From positions 1-31,707 of the IMG/VR virus record IMGVR_UViG_3300009419_001784: a stretch of 31,707 nucleotides of DNA; one strand, 5' to 3'. The notes beneath the pieces were generated by a model. That model had not been told where the DNA came from, did not search any database, and was given only the letters and a program-made list of their open reading frames with translations. Shown one piece after another: positions 17,186 through 23,525 of the stretch (its first letter is position 1; each line of letters begins with the position of its first letter). A program made the position numbers and the translations under genes. The stretch comes from a virus.

Positions 17186-17331
17186 GTGGTAACATCCTTT
17201 TGAAATATGTTTTATAAACAGTTTGCAGCGTTAGGTTTGATTGCGTGGATGCAATATACATTTGCACATTTGCAAATGTCAACAATTAAACGTTGCATAT
17301 TAGCAATTATATTTGCGTAAAGGCATTGCCA
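17186..17331. promoter_or_regulatory. Divergent repressor/Ner control region with operators
   Basis: This gap carries the phage switch. On the minus strand TTGACA (17282-17277), an 18-nt spacer and TATATT (17258-17253) make a good early promoter for ner. The perfect 14-bp palindrome ACATTTGCAAATGT at 17266-17279 lies inside its spacer and -35, and related TTGCA/TGCAA half-sites recur at about 17222, 17251, 17262 and 17294. A repressor bound there would block early transcription. Which of the two regulators binds which site is not evident. Confidence 0.7.
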
Positions 17332-18369: not shown

Positions 18370-20934
18370 ATGGAAAAGCTCTTATTCATTGTCTGTGCGC
18401 TGTTTGCATCTGCATGCCTAAATGCCACAACCAGACAAAATGTTGAAATACCTATCAGTGTGCCAATTGCCGATGCTGTTCAGCATCAACAAGACATATA
18501 TTTCGCAAGCCACCTTGGCCTCTTGAAATTATCTGACGGTAATTTGTTTAAGCTAAAAGATTCTGGAATTGATCTAGGTCGTTTGCGCCAAGTTGAAATT
18601 AGCCAAGATCAGAATCAATTGTATGCGGGGGGATTTGGCTTATGGCAGCTTAATTTAACCAATTACAGCGTAAAAAAAGTATATCCAGGATGGGTAAGCA
18701 GATTTGCTGTGGCCGACAAGTATTATTACGTTGATACAGGTGATGATTTATGGGCTATTCCGAAAGATGGCACTGAAGCAAAAACAAAAATATTTGAATT
18801 CCCAATCATTGCAATCACTCAAGTCGACCGCGAGGTTTTTGCGTTAGCGCAAGGTGGTCTTTACGCATTAATGAATACAGTGTCGCGTGTTGTCAAGCAA
18901 GGTCAATTTAAAAGCTTGCTTTCTAATCCGTTATATATGGTTATGACTGATACTGAATTCATGCATGTTTTTAGCCGTACAACAAACCAATGGCACAAAT
19001 TCAACCTTCCTGAGAACGTTTCAAAAATTGAGATGAGTTCGCAAGAGGATGCCGTTTGGGTTCGCAGTAGTGGTATTTGGAAGAAATTTAGCCTGATAAA
19101 CTTTCATCAACTAGATAGTATCGATAAGCCTGCTGCATTTTTTTACGATAGCCCTTCTGGCCCAGTACTATTTGATGGAACAACGCTGACTCTGAACAAA
19201 AAAATTTCAATATTCGATATTCAGTCAAAATCTTTGGTTACTTCTGCAGCTGTCGAACCTTTTATATTTCAGAGTTCCGCCGGAGTGTTTGCATCGGGTG
19301 TAGGTGGGATTTATTCAGTAACAACGGGTGAATTAGTTTTAAAGAGTGATCAGCACATTACAGCATTCGAAACTAGAGATGGCGTTAACTTCACTATTGG
19401 AACAAATAAGGGGGCGATTTTACCGGATGGCCAGTTTATCAAGAAAGGTTTTGTCTCTGACATAGAGCGGCACCAAGAAGATACCATTATAGCCTTTGAG
19501 CAGAGCATTTATAAGTTAAACCAAGGATCTCTAACCCCGCTACTTATAGAAGATTTAAAAGGGCAAGAAGTACTGAACTTGAAAAGTGAACAGGGAAAGC
19601 TTTTTGTTTTAACAGATAGCCATATTTTCACATTAGAAGACCAACTTAAAAAAGTTGCAAGCCTTAAACAGGCTATCTGGGAAGATGTGATCGTAATTAA
19701 AGATAGAATCTACGCATTAAGTTATAACCATGGTATTTTTGAAATTGACTTAGATGGAAACATGAAAAAAGTTGATTCTATTCAATCACTTCCGAACAGA
19801 TTTTTTGTTCACAATCAGTTGATTTATGTTATTGGGCGAGAAGGCATTTGTAGATTAGATGTCGCTGTTTCGTCTTGTAAGCAAATATCTGCAAGCGTTA
19901 CAGGGCGGTCAAGTACAGTAACAAATAATGGTATTTATTACAGCAACCCTCATGGGGTTTGGTTGCTAGAAGAGCGCGCGTTGATTTCTAATCCAATTTT
20001 GCAATATGTAGTATTTAACCAAAGGGCAATCATAGATAAAAAGTTAAGCATTAACTCAGGTGAAGCTATAGCCCTGCATTTCGATATGAAAGATGGCACT
20101 GTTTTTCTTGAGGGTAAAGAATACTCAATCTACAACCATCAAGTCATATTAACCCCCAATCGGTCAATTCAAGTGAATGGCTGGCACATAGAGGTAAAGA
20201 ACAGTATTAGTTGGTTGTGGATCCTACTTGCACCTGTTTTGATTTTATCTTGGTGGTTTATTTGGTCATTAATGAAAGCTAAATCGATTGCAAATGCTGA
20301 GTTTGTTCGTTTGTCACGCTATCAGTTGCATGCTGATGAGGTACGTAAAGCCTGTGATATGTCGCTCGATATCTCTCACAAATTAAACCTGAACAATGAT
20401 CTGGCATTATCTGATGCCATTTATAAGGCTCAGGAGCTGCAAGAAATCCTTGCACCAATCGCAATGAACGCCAGACTACGGGATACCGACAACCTGACCT
20501 TTGCGTTAAACAGCCATGTAGCCAGTATTTTCAGTATTCACCCTGAACTTGAAGTAAGCATTGGGGAGTGCGATAAAATTAACCCCAAACTGAATGCTGA
20601 TGCTTACCACCTGCTAATTCATATGCTGCGGTATGCAATTGACCGTTTCGGGGCTGAGAAGATTGTAATCCATGTTCTGCGAGAATCTGAAAATGATTGC
20701 ATGTTATGCGTAGAGCATAACGGCAAAACTGAAACCATGATCCATCGCTTAATCAGCCGTTCTACAGATCACATGATCATGAGAGCTATTGCCAGAGAAT
20801 ATGGCCAGTCATTAAAGTTTTTTCGCAATGAAATAAACGTTATGCTGACTTATAGCCCTCAACTTAAGTCAACACCACAACAAGCCTACTATCTGGCAAG
20901 GGCGTCAAAATTTGGTTTGAAGCTGCAGAAGTAG
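18370..20934 (+). CDS. Periplasmic propeller / TM / degenerate histidine-kinase-like sensor
   Basis: An 854-residue membrane protein with the plan of a two-component sensor. A signal peptide (1-19, LFASACLNA) precedes ~580 periplasmic residues with regularly spaced motifs such as GLLKL, GLWQL, GLYAL, GIYSV, GIFEI, GICRL and GVWLL, typical of Reg_prop-type beta-propellers. One membrane span lies at about 612-636 (WLWILLAPVLILSWWFIW). The ~215 cytoplasmic residues hold helices and a HATPase-like fold: HLLIHMLRYAIDRFG where the N box should be, CVEHNG for the G1 box and MIMRAIAREYGQSLKF for G2. The Mg-binding Asn and the G1 Asp are absent, and no clear phospho-acceptor His is seen, so it may be a pseudokinase. 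No response regulator is nearby. Its output is unknown. Confidence 0.72.
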   Translation: MEKLLFIVCALFASACLNATTRQNVEIPISVPIADAVQHQQDIYFASHLGLLKLSDGNLFKLKDSGIDLGRLRQVEISQDQNQLYAGGFGLWQLNLTNYSVKKVYPGWVSRFAVADKYYYVDTGDDLWAIPKDGTEAKTKIFEFPIIAITQVDREVFALAQGGLYALMNTVSRVVKQGQFKSLLSNPLYMVMTDTEFMHVFSRTTNQWHKFNLPENVSKIEMSSQEDAVWVRSSGIWKKFSLINFHQLDSIDKPAAFFYDSPSGPVLFDGTTLTLNKKISIFDIQSKSLVTSAAVEPFIFQSSAGVFASGVGGIYSVTTGELVLKSDQHITAFETRDGVNFTIGTNKGAILPDGQFIKKGFVSDIERHQEDTIIAFEQSIYKLNQGSLTPLLIEDLKGQEVLNLKSEQGKLFVLTDSHIFTLEDQLKKVASLKQAIWEDVIVIKDRIYALSYNHGIFEIDLDGNMKKVDSIQSLPNRFFVHNQLIYVIGREGICRLDVAVSSCKQISASVTGRSSTVTNNGIYYSNPHGVWLLEERALISNPILQYVVFNQRAIIDKKLSINSGEAIALHFDMKDGTVFLEGKEYSIYNHQVILTPNRSIQVNGWHIEVKNSISWLWILLAPVLILSWWFIWSLMKAKSIANAEFVRLSRYQLHADEVRKACDMSLDISHKLNLNNDLALSDAIYKAQELQEILAPIAMNARLRDTDNLTFALNSHVASIFSIHPELEVSIGECDKINPKLNADAYHLLIHMLRYAIDRFGAEKIVIHVLRESENDCMLCVEHNGKTETMIHRLISRSTDHMIMRAIAREYGQSLKFFRNEINVMLTYSPQLKSTPQQAYYLARASKFGLKLQK

Positions 20935-20961: not shown

Positions 20962-21750
20962 TTATATTTTACTCACCTTCTGACTGCTAAAAGATACAAA
21001 ACAGTTGTAATTATCAAGCGCAGATCCTTTTTCTATAGATAAGACCTTGCCAATAACTTCTACTTTATCATCTTTTTCTAACTCAAAAGCTGTTGGATTA
21101 TCTTCAATGTATGTATTTAGAATTAAAGTTGACTTAAATTTTTCAGAAGGCAGATTAAACTTAGGGTCTTCTAATGAAATAGAAACTGTAGCAATAGGCT
21201 TGCCTGTGCTTTTATCCCTGGAAATGTCAACAACTTCTCCTTTAAATATTAGATTTTTATCTGACATATCAGCGACAATTTTTTCTTGTCTCATTTGAGT
21301 ATCGGTGTCGCAAGATGCTTTGATTTGATAGGGAAAGAAATCCTTCGACGCAACTTTACTATAGCTTTCAACATTTAATCGGATATCTCCCAACCAGCTG
21401 TTTGTAATGACAGAATCTTTATCACGATAGGAATAAATGTTTTCTTTAAATCTTATTGGATGACCTAATCCAGCCAAAGTTGTTATTGATTTGCCGTCAT
21501 ATACATAAAACCCTGTCGACGTTTCATAACAAATAAGCCCAGTAGGTAGTGCTGAACTAACATTGTCAGTAAAGTCCATTTTAGTTGCATAGCACTGGGT
21601 CTCGCCTAAAAACAACTTACTCTTAGTCAGTGCCATCACTTGGTAAACTGGAAGCTGGTTCGGGTAAGGTATCTTTTGTGGGTCGTTGGCGTTGGCAGAG
21701 GTGCTTAGTAGTAAACAAGCATATAGAAAAGATATTTTGTGCGTATACAT
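20962..21750 (-). CDS. Secreted protein with OB-fold-like C-terminal part
   Basis: An exported 262-residue protein; the signal peptide is MYTHKISFLYACLLLSTSAN with cleavage near Ala21. The middle contains a repeated-strand region (CYETSTGFYVYDGKSITTL). The last ~100 residues (NLIFKGEVVDISRDKSTGKPIATVSISLE and later DDKVEVIGKVLSIEKG) resemble the tRNA_anti-like OB-fold family. Four mature cysteines could form two disulphides. It is convergent with the sensor gene, 27 bp apart, and has no coupled neighbour. A periplasmic binding role is likely; the ligand is unknown. Confidence 0.68.
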   Translation of the reverse strand: MYTHKISFLYACLLLSTSANANDPQKIPYPNQLPVYQVMALTKSKLFLGETQCYATKMDFTDNVSSALPTGLICYETSTGFYVYDGKSITTLAGLGHPIRFKENIYSYRDKDSVITNSWLGDIRLNVESYSKVASKDFFPYQIKASCDTDTQMRQEKIVADMSDKNLIFKGEVVDISRDKSTGKPIATVSISLEDPKFNLPSEKFKSTLILNTYIEDNPTAFELEKDDKVEVIGKVLSIEKGSALDNYNCFVSFSSQKVSKI

Positions 21751-21889: not shown

Positions 21890-21928
21890 TTTAAACAAAT
21901 TTAAACTATGTTTAAACGGCATTTAAAC
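21890..21928. repeat. Phased TTTAAAC array (4 copies)
   Basis: TTTAAAC begins at 21890, 21900, 21911 and 21922, spaced 10-11 bp, so all copies face the same side of the helix. It lies about 85 bp upstream of the promoter of the DUF4062 cassette. The motif is shared with arrays at 2385 and 12520. Confidence 0.55.
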
Positions 21929-21991
21929 TAGGTCCAACCCGCTATCACCCCAACAAATTAATCCAACTTTGCAAAGTTTAAATAATTCGGC

Positions 21992-22038
21992 TCAAAGAGC
22001 CTAAAATAAATTGACATTAGGATCAAAGAGCCTATAAT
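21992..22038 (+). promoter_or_regulatory. Consensus sigma-70 promoter with duplicated operator
   Basis: TTGACA at 22011-22016, a 16-nt spacer and TATAAT at 22033-22038 match both sigma-70 boxes exactly. TCAAAGAGCCTA occurs at 21992-22003 and 22023-22034, 31 bp (three turns) apart; the second copy covers the end of the spacer and the start of the -10. The first copy is part of the dyad GGCTC-AAA-GAGCC. A repressor bound to both would silence the cassette. The HTH-like protein encoded downstream is a candidate. Confidence 0.72.
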
Positions 22039-22047
22039 GATATCCAC

Positions 22048-22095
22048 GGTGGCACACAGAAGGCCACTCGTCTTGAGGGGGCCATAGCTGCCACT
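22048..22095 (+). other. Structured 5' leader of the cassette mRNA
   Basis: Between the promoter and the first ribosome site, GTGGCA (22049-22054) pairs with TGCCAC (22089-22094). Inside that, GGCC (22062) pairs with GGCC (22080) and CTC (22067) with GAG (22075). The result is one long interrupted hairpin ending two bases before the GGAG ribosome site. It may control translation of the first gene. Confidence 0.4.
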
Positions 22096-22106
22096 TGGAG
22101 AACGAG

Positions 22107-22394
22107 ATGATACTTTCTGATGTTTGTTCCATTAAAACGCAGTTTAAAGATGCGGATTTTTGGATAGTACGCCGAGGCTCTTTAAAAACTGTTGGCTTGC
22201 CGGTTCGGGATTACAACCCTGAACATATCGGGATAAAGGTTGTAAAAACCGAAATCCTGCTGCCGGATTACCTCTACTACTGCATGATGCATGTGCATAG
22301 TCAGAAAGTCTGGGAGCCACTGGCCAACGGTTCACTGAGCCTGGTGAACATCAAGGTGTCAGACGTTCGGAACATCCGACTGTCACCGAGGTAA
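22107..22394 (+). CDS. Solo specificity-domain-like protein (type I restriction S-subunit TRD-like)
   Basis: A 95-residue protein resembling the end of a target-recognition domain of type I restriction S subunits: FWIVRRGSLKTVGLP, then NPEHIGIKVVKTEILLPDYL, then LANGSLSLVNIKVSDVRNIRL. A full S subunit has two such domains in ~400 residues, and no methylase or nuclease subunit is near. GGAG six bases before the ATG at 22107 sets the start; a TTG at 22095 is less likely. It is the first gene of a cassette with its own promoter. It could bind DNA alone or interfere with a host type I enzyme. Both are speculation. Confidence 0.6.
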   Translation: MILSDVCSIKTQFKDADFWIVRRGSLKTVGLPVRDYNPEHIGIKVVKTEILLPDYLYYCMMHVHSQKVWEPLANGSLSLVNIKVSDVRNIRLSPR

Positions 22395-22421
22395 GGTTGG
22401 GGCGAAAGCCCCAACCTCTTT
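22394..22421 (+). terminator. Strong hairpin with GAAA loop after first cassette gene
   Basis: A perfect 10-bp stem (AGGTTGGGGC/GCCCCAACCT) capped by a GAAA tetraloop begins at the last base of the stop codon and is followed by CTTT. It looks like a partial intrinsic terminator that would reduce expression of the two downstream genes relative to the first. Confidence 0.6.
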
Positions 22422-22439
22422 AAATTAAACGAGGTTTAA

Positions 22440-22856
22440 ATGGACATTAAAATAGATTTACCTTGCATTGCTGACCAACAGCGCTTTGTTTACATCCAAA
22501 GCACTGAGGCGGCTATCGCACAGCTGCAGCAGAATTTACTGGCCCCAACCTTACCAGGGCAGACGGAAATAGATGAACGGGCATACAGCAATAAACATTT
22601 GCTAACCGAAGACCAGGGCTATGAACCGCCGCACCAGGATGTTGTGGGCGCTTATTTCCGGCATTTTCAAAAGGCATACCCTGAATACGGCACGGATGGT
22701 AAGTTAGCGAAACTGCTGGGCCTGTCTGGTGATAGACGGGTTCGTGCGTTTAAAGATGGTTCTAAAACCGTACCTTATGGCGTTTGGCGCAAGTTCTTAG
22801 TGATGACTGGCAGAGCGCCACAAGAAATCATTCAGGTTTTTGGGTTTATGGGATAA
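22440..22856 (+). CDS. Hypothetical protein with HTH-like C-terminal part (138 aa)
   Basis: Not a family I can name. The N-terminal ~70 residues contain a helix (RFVYIQSTEAAIAQLQQNLL) and a loop-rich segment. The C-terminal part, YGTDGKLAKLLGLSGDRRVR then AFKDGSKTVPYGVWRKFLVMTGRAPQEI, has the look of a Cro/CI-type helix-turn-helix (K-x-A-x-L-L-G-L-S, then YGVWRKFLVMTG). It might regulate the cassette through the TCAAAGAGCCTA repeats. It ends three bases before the DUF4062 gene, so the two are almost certainly co-transcribed. Confidence 0.6.
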   Translation: MDIKIDLPCIADQQRFVYIQSTEAAIAQLQQNLLAPTLPGQTEIDERAYSNKHLLTEDQGYEPPHQDVVGAYFRHFQKAYPEYGTDGKLAKLLGLSGDRRVRAFKDGSKTVPYGVWRKFLVMTGRAPQEIIQVFGFMG

Positions 22857-22859
22857 AAC

Positions 22860-23525
22860 ATGGAAAAATTAAAAGTTTTCATTAGCTCTACTTTTTTAGA
22901 TTTGAGAGATGAACGTGATGCGCTTTCAAATTTATTTCGTGAGTTTGGCATTGACGTTTTAGCATTAGATGCGATGCCTTCAAGCGGTGACTCACCTCAA
23001 AAAGTCATTGCTCAAGGAATTACAAAAAGTGATTTGGTAATTCTGATCTTCGGTTCAAGATATGGCGCGCTATTAAACGAGACAAGGTTTATTGCAAAGA
23101 ATAGAGATACCTGCAGCGTGACGAAATGGGAATATCTGTTAGCAAGAGATAAACAAAAGACCATCCTTACTTTTATCAAAGATACAACCTACGACCAAAA
23201 CGAAAAATCTCAGAATCCGCTCAAAGAGGCATTATTCCGTTCATTTAAGTCTGAATTTGATCACGTAAATAAACAATACTTCTCTAACGCTATAGAGCTA
23301 AAAACCAAGGTTATACAATCGATCATCGCTTACCTACACAATTCAAAAAATGGCAGTTTGCATCAGTTGAAAGCAGAGAACGAATCACTCAAAAAAGAAA
23401 TAAACACCCTTCAAGAAAAATTAATTAAACAATCTTACCCTGTACATGGCTTTCAAAGTTCTTTTACCTCTTTAGGGAATAATTCATTGCTAGGCTTGGG
23501 TGATTACAAACCGAAACAGAAATAA
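22860..23525 (+). CDS. DUF4062 (TIR/SEFIR-like) protein with coiled-coil tail
   Basis: A 221-residue protein whose first ~150 residues fit DUF4062: KVFISSTFLDLRDERDALSN at 5-24, SPQKVIAQGITKSDLVILIFGSRYG at 45-69, SVTKWEYLLARDKQKTILTFI at 86-106. This flavodoxin-like fold is related to TIR domains and is usually joined to NTPase or repeat domains in predicted immune proteins. Here it stands almost alone, followed by a coiled coil at about 160-190 (HQLKAENESLKKEINTLQEK). No catalytic Glu can be assigned with certainty. As cargo next to the late operon, an abortive-infection or superinfection-exclusion role is plausible but unproven. Confidence 0.78.
   Translation: MEKLKVFISSTFLDLRDERDALSNLFREFGIDVLALDAMPSSGDSPQKVIAQGITKSDLVILIFGSRYGALLNETRFIAKNRDTCSVTKWEYLLARDKQKTILTFIKDTTYDQNEKSQNPLKEALFRSFKSEFDHVNKQYFSNAIELKTKVIQSIIAYLHNSKNGSLHQLKAENESLKKEINTLQEKLIKQSYPVHGFQSSFTSLGNNSLLGLGDYKPKQK

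Follow-up and report, generated by a model that had tools for sequence, protein, structure and literature searches.

The stretch of DNA analysed here (the window) comprises all 31,707 nucleotides of the IMG/VR record IMGVR_UViG_3300009419_001784, a 31.7-kb record of a Mu-like (pro)phage. Its gene order is unusual for such a phage, with transposase A/B, terminase, portal and MuF genes running leftward from a central repressor region (around position 17200), and protease, capsid and tail genes running rightward. At its left end, the window borders on an NRPS-like gene (246-833) that is probably of host origin. Sites of the form (G)TTTAAA(C), possible transposase-end or enhancer sites, are densely clustered near that end (1077-1263 and 2341-2426) and again just upstream of the promoter described below (21890-21922). 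Moreover, an 854-aa protein (18370-20934), kept in the loci L002 and L004, begins with a predicted signal-like segment and contains a part resembling a beta-propeller; it had no confident family. Further to the right lies a cassette of three genes, the features of which are as follows.

21987-22003, no strand: distal operator copy TCGGCTCAAAGAGCCTA, 31 bp from the proximal copy
22011-22038, plus strand: predicted sigma-70 promoter TTGACA-16-TATAAT, agreeing with the consensus in 12 of 12 letters
22018-22034, no strand: proximal operator TAGGATCAAAGAGCCTA, between the -35 and -10 boxes and overlapping the -10 box
22045-22106, plus strand: conserved leader RNA with a structure supported by covariation, reaching approximately from the start of transcription to the start codon
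22048-22054 with 22089-22095 (P1), 22062-22065 with 22080-22083 (P2) and 22067-22070 with 22074-22077 (P3): helices of the leader, following the family structure
22097-22102, plus strand: Shine-Dalgarno sequence GGAGAA, adjoining the 3′ strand of P1
22107-22394, plus strand: mini-TRD gene, 95 aa, assigned by AlphaFold2, Foldseek and PADLOC Specificity_I
22394-22417, plus strand: G/C hairpin AGGTTGGGGC-GAAA-GCCCCAACCT, at the TRD stop codon
22440-22856, plus strand: HTH gene, 138 aa, with an HsdS-like linker and helix at residues 1-32 and an XRE-like HTH at about residues 66-122
22860-23525, plus strand: DUF4062 gene, 221 aa, matching PF13271, with a C-terminal coiled coil, 3 bp behind the HTH gene
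23130-23132, plus strand: putative catalytic Glu91 of the DUF4062 protein, from alignment

A first-pass annotation, made from the letters alone, had described a self-contained cassette with an exact-consensus promoter, a duplicated operator, a structured leader, an internal terminator-like hairpin and three genes in one direction, and all these elements were recovered. In particular, the distal operator copy places the start of the cassette about 5 bp before position 21992, where it had been set; a covariance model matched the leader at 22038-22109 with 64.4 bits, against a background of about 22; the hairpin lies right after the TRD stop; and the genes for 95, 138 and 221 aa all run rightward. 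These features are not products of chance, since the operator, the leader, the hairpin and the first two genes are conserved together on unrelated plasmids and phages. The description of a regulated unit lying in a variable accessory slot of a prophage was borne out as well. The gene just upstream is also exchanged, coding here for a 262-aa exported-looking protein (20962-21750, minus strand) and in sister phages for a 222-aa lipoprotein-like protein (L007:6984-7652).

The AlphaFold2 model of the first gene product, built from 63 sequences, had a pLDDT of 91.5, and the top five Foldseek matches in the PDB were all HsdS-type subunits or methyltransferases. The best of them was the HsdS of M. 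genitalium (1ydx; probability 1.00, TMq 0.69), and the fold was also matched by the BsaXI S subunit, a Vibrio methyltransferase and the PacII S subunit. Furthermore, the Specificity_I models of PADLOC matched many TRD relatives, the commonest of these models hitting 35 of 63, and strongly conserved residues were found, e.g. F18, R22, G30, I41, G42, G75, I82 and D86. A longer protein with a TTG start is unlikely, as the conserved protein and the conserved RNA meet at the ATG (22107). By sequence and predicted structure, gene 1 therefore codes for a minimal HsdS target-recognition domain (TRD), as the earlier mention of a stand-alone specificity-like domain had it. It holds a single TRD of 95 aa, where an HsdS subunit has two per chain and is encoded beside hsdM/hsdR. 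Being so small and, unlike ordinary TRDs, very conserved, this mini-TRD may have an unusual mode of binding DNA or HsdM, which counts against the anti-defence proposal made below.

The model of the second protein (pLDDT 93.7) showed a long N-terminal helix (residues 10-32) and a C-terminal XRE-like HTH, agreeing with the DNA-binding type of partner that had been suspected. Its Foldseek neighbours were HigA2, HipB, Aca10, Aca7 and Aca2, all with E-values above 0.3, and weak E-values are usual for small HTH domains; Aca10 was matched with a probability of 0.91 and a TMt of 0.76. In these model comparisons, Aca is thus one among many XRE matches. Moreover, a profile built from residues 1-41 matched HsdS subunits of the PDB (E = 1.9e-5) at both linkers that follow a TRD, where the motif MxIxLPxxxEQ of the HTH protein corresponds to IPLPPLEEQ of HsdS; the match to LPPLEEQ became significant only with this N-terminal profile, a profile of the entire HTH protein giving a weak one. 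This places the break between genes 1 and 2 where HsdS passes from the TRD to its conserved region, so that the pair resembles an HsdS divided in two, the second part of which is fused to a repressor domain. The pair shares with HsdS and half-HsdS proteins the TRD fold and the IPLPPLxEQ linker and helix behind it, but it is divided over two genes, lacks a second TRD and the central coiled coil, ends in an HTH and, in the annotated plasmid regions, had no hsdM or hsdR alongside.

Searches with the two small proteins found relatives in about 30 viral contigs and 260-270 PLSDB plasmids, the TRD being present in 268 and the HTH protein in 261 of 72,556 PLSDB records. The plasmid carriers belonged mainly to Pseudomonas, Enterobacter, Klebsiella, Salmonella, Citrobacter and Escherichia and included IncX-like, IncP, IncF, pPT23A-type and pKPC_UVA01 plasmids. 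The order TRD then HTH was found at 121 match places, which are redundant, and 51 of these were distinct by their upstream sequence. A total of 26 annotated plasmid stretches were examined, among them an IncP-type plasmid (L050), pO157_Sal (L049), an IncF plasmid of Salmonella (L051), pKPC_UVA01 (L061), a P. aeruginosa stretch beside acrF genes (L053), P. syringae plasmids (L054, L058, L067 and L068) and stretches from Vibrio, Thiothrix, Aeromonas and Erwinia. Nearly all of them carried the TRD followed by the HTH gene, the exceptions being L063, where the HTH gene had no TRD match and an IS26 transposase gene lay just upstream, and the Anabaena plasmid L202, where the TRD gene had no HTH gene. 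As the carriers are wholly different, the pair moves as a unit. As read from the annotation tables, its neighbours included genes for KlcA/ArdB-type antirestriction proteins (L061 and L065) besides the acrF genes mentioned above, and on plasmids it often stood beside toxin-antitoxin genes. Both genes are under purifying selection, with dN/dS values of 0.03-0.07 for the HTH and 0.05-0.43 for the TRD.

On the other hand, no TRD or HTH relative was found among the INPHARED phages, where DUF4062 was matched at 24% identity only, and among 369 sampled genomes of the Cellvibrio class the HTH gene occurred solely in the query genome. A set of 302 E. coli records returned by blastn was discarded as copies of the module, the matches being mostly to a hicB gene within the query. 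All the plasmid copies listed or examined were annotated as ‘hypothetical protein’ or left unannotated, and no description of the pair or of the leader was found in the literature searched, nor in Rfam, Pfam, NCBIfam or PADLOC. Judged by sequence, the components are of known kinds, while their combination appears new and its function unproven.

The conserved core thus consists of the promoter, the palindromic operator, the leader RNA, the mini-TRD gene, the G/C hairpin and the HTH gene. The operator motif TAGG-N9-CCTA was present at the proximal site in 43 of the 51 distinct pair loci and in none of 28 loci with the TRD alone, and a second strict copy occurred in 16 of the 51, mostly 33 bp upstream. 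Its inner triplets vary by locus (CGC, CTC, CGG, ATC or CGA), and they matched as a palindrome at 119 of 129 positions (permutation mean 76, maximum 96). Furthermore, the 48 nt following the TRD stop had a median minimum free energy of -19.1 in the pair loci vs. -3.8 in the TRD-only loci. The G/C hairpin is a possible attenuator or mRNA stabiliser.

As for the leader, 38 distinct sequences fitted one structure, with 94.3% of cells paired, which runs from P1 through an internal loop with a conserved CAGAAA, P2 (AGCC/GGCU) and the P3 hairpin to an end beside the Shine-Dalgarno sequence. Changes on both sides were found in 11 of 16 pairs, and the covariation score was reached by none of 500 shuffles and by none of the slid controls. 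Moreover, 49 cells held G-U pairs, which speaks for an RNA from this strand rather than a hairpin in DNA. The unpaired ACAGAAA was strongly conserved, as was GGCUA. The minimum-energy fold of the window's own leader differs from that of the family, so that the structure there rests on the family covariation; in L016 and L052, the Shine-Dalgarno region is predicted to pair with the leader's 5′ end. A pseudoknot between the loop and the Shine-Dalgarno sequence is hinted at, with 34 of 2000 shuffles equally good and kinship uncorrected.

The covariance model (R1) gave 40-79 bits in the pair loci, with the match always ending at the start codon, against a background of about 22 bits. Wherever a distinct pair locus had upstream sequence, the leader was found, apart from a weak match of just 23 bits in L143, and no TRD-only locus had it; among held-out plasmids, it was recovered in five out of five carrying the pair (64-73 bits) and not in the TRD-only Anabaena plasmid. 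This distribution indicates that the leader goes with the HTH gene. The exception (L143:4925-4997) is the most divergent pair and retains the TAGG-N9-CCTA operator, and it may be informative on which leader positions matter. Rfam 15 yielded no family match to the leader at E-values up to 1-3, and a second DNA pattern, which was overly strict, added nothing. Five matches in the 369 Cellvibrio-class genomes scored about 22 bits and were regarded as chance.

The mini-TRD without leader, operator or HTH gene was seen in many viral contigs (L024-L033 and L094-L148). In four of them (L030-L033), the mini-TRD gene and the end of a 933-aa gene resembling a DNA polymerase overlap. Furthermore, a 575-aa uncultured phage protein named sigma-70-like (BFVD A0A6J5SZS4) includes, as a fusion, a close copy of the mini-TRD (46% identity, TMq 0.92).

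The third gene behaved differently from the core. The first-pass annotation had correctly recognised its product as a TIR-like DUF4062 protein, which matched PF13271 with 68.9 bits (E = 4.4e-19; curated cut-off 24.7). According to a 2026 preprint, DUF4062 is a TIR-like NADase family, the antiphage members of which have been named Swarozyc (PMC13174449). Glu91 was aligned in five out of five sequences compared and would correspond to E97 of KpSwz, a protein outside that alignment. On sequence grounds, a TIR-like effector of the NADase type is therefore credible. The window protein shares with Swarozyc the DUF4062 domain, the Glu at the TIR catalytic position and a helical C-terminus, but its 221 aa end in a coiled coil and a short tail, in which no portal-binding winged auxiliary domain was recognised by sequence; past the DUF4062 domain, the sequence search gave matches of the coiled-coil type only. 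Regarding linkage, the genes found behind the HTH gene in 47 distinct loci fell into 38 clusters (with simple ORF picking, so that some are not real genes), and DUF4062 was among them only in the window and in the sister phage L003. Between these two, DNA identity was 99.4% for DUF4062, 91-93% for the TRD, HTH and protease genes and 78% for the capsid gene, an excess over the neighbours that points to a recent arrival by recombination. The sequences thus mark DUF4062 as an exchangeable, recently acquired defence cargo.

These results bear directly on the proposal that the three genes form a compact immune unit, in which the TRD would recognise invading DNA, the HTH protein would regulate and DUF4062 would deplete NAD+. 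The shared direction, the 3-bp spacing behind the HTH gene, the kept catalytic Glu and the antiphage NADases of the family (PMC13174449) speak for it. Nevertheless, with a third gene that is not conserved, a DUF4062 gene that came recently and Swarozyc proteins that act alone and sense the phage portal through their own auxiliary domain (PMC13174449), this part of the first-pass annotation did not hold, and it is now extremely improbable: the linkage of all three genes that it predicted was confined to two phages, the core being TRD plus HTH, and nothing suggests that the TRD protein is a sensor for the DUF4062 effector. The TRD-only loci likewise led us to set aside, as unlikely, a type II toxin-antitoxin system serving plasmid addiction, with the TRD as toxin and an autoregulating HigA/HipB-like antitoxin, because a toxin would hardly tolerate standing without its partner in many viral contigs and on the Anabaena plasmid. 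HigBA and HipBA do resemble the pair as small two-gene operons of plasmids with an HTH partner and a palindromic operator, with the payload first as in HigBA; HigA2 and HipB folds are among the best HTH matches, and the pair is very common on plasmids, often near toxin-antitoxin genes. However, the payload lacks a toxin fold, we know of no toxin activity of the HsdS fold, and a leader RNA would be unusual for such systems.

A possible, if doubtful, alternative is that the two proteins associate into a single complex, in effect a half-HsdS put together again and bearing HTH heads, which would be a DNA-binding regulator or would steer the host HsdM to methylate the element. The break between the genes lies precisely at the junction of TRD and linker; proteins that are half an HsdS form dimers, cooperate with HsdM and recognise palindromic sites (PMC6158711); and the operator, constant in its outer TAGG/CCTA and variable in its inner bases, might be recognised by the constant TRD and the varying HTH. 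The TRD copies without a linker protein argue against it, as does the conservation of the mini-TRD, which is too high for diverse methylation specificity. As regards the leader itself, it might be a ligand-sensing riboswitch or a thermometer unrelated to the HTH protein, given the strong conservation of its unpaired ACAGAAA and of GGCUA and a Shine-Dalgarno sequence beside or within a helix, but its strict co-occurrence with the HTH gene and its absence from TRD-only loci point to a protein partner, making this very unlikely.

The explanation that we prefer, tentatively and at somewhat less than an even chance, is that the core serves mobile elements as an autoregulated anti-defence operon with two genes, similar to acr-aca. 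The sequences, models and analogies behind this proposal include the order of a small payload followed by a putative XRE-type autoregulator, as in aca2 of phage ZF40 and with Aca10 and Aca7, the inverted repeats over the -35/-10 region, the mobile carriers and a structured leader at the ribosome-binding site. For Aca1 and Aca2, the inverted repeats overlap the -35/-10 boxes, and acrIF8-aca2 has two similar ones (PMC8434428). The pair differs from acr-aca in its HsdS-derived payload, in the HsdS linker of its HTH protein and in a leader that forms one RNA family across many plasmid and phage types, and its resemblance to acr-aca lies in layout and fold, not in demonstrated sequence kinship.

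Under this anti-defence proposal, the HTH protein would dimerise, bind the operator and repress the operon, so that an element entering an unrepressed cell would produce a burst of TRD protein. This protein would occupy HsdM or HsdM-HsdR instead of the proper S subunit, thereby blocking type I (or related TRD-using) restriction; with a piece of HsdS as payload, the fold points to restriction-modification instead of CRISPR-Cas, and type I restriction is the likeliest target, or else BREX or type IIG. The HTH protein, or a TRD-HTH complex, would also bind the leader RNA and lower TRD translation, like Aca2, which reportedly binds its mRNA leader in addition to DNA and reduces translation of the anti-CRISPR gene. 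The matching split ends suggest that the TRD and HTH proteins bind each other, in which case the repressor could sense free TRD protein. DUF4062 would be a defence gene riding on the operon transcript, and the viral copies of the TRD alone fit a payload able to act by itself. Conservation, folds, covariation and linkage were shown here, whereas we infer RNA binding by the HTH protein from its co-occurrence with the leader and from Aca2; repression, TRD-HTH contact and anti-restriction are likewise inferences. In a more specific version, which we consider decidedly unlikely, a TRD ‘inhibitor’ and a linker-HTH ‘sensor-repressor’ are the two parts of a former HsdS and bind each other again; host HsdM would titrate the TRD, the repressor would leave the operator and the leader, and the anti-restriction protein would rise only in hosts that have a type I system. 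The leader would then be a new RNA family read by the HTH protein.

Finally, the pair is carried by about 260 of the 72,556 PLSDB plasmids, including pKPC_UVA01 and others from Enterobacterales and Pseudomonas of hospitals. Should it prove to be an anti-restriction operon, the way in which such plasmids enter new hosts would be easier to explain. If true, the proposal would also bring a conserved mRNA leader that Rfam lacks and a second Aca-like HTH repressor acting on DNA and RNA alike, and the natural variants available for study would number in the hundreds.
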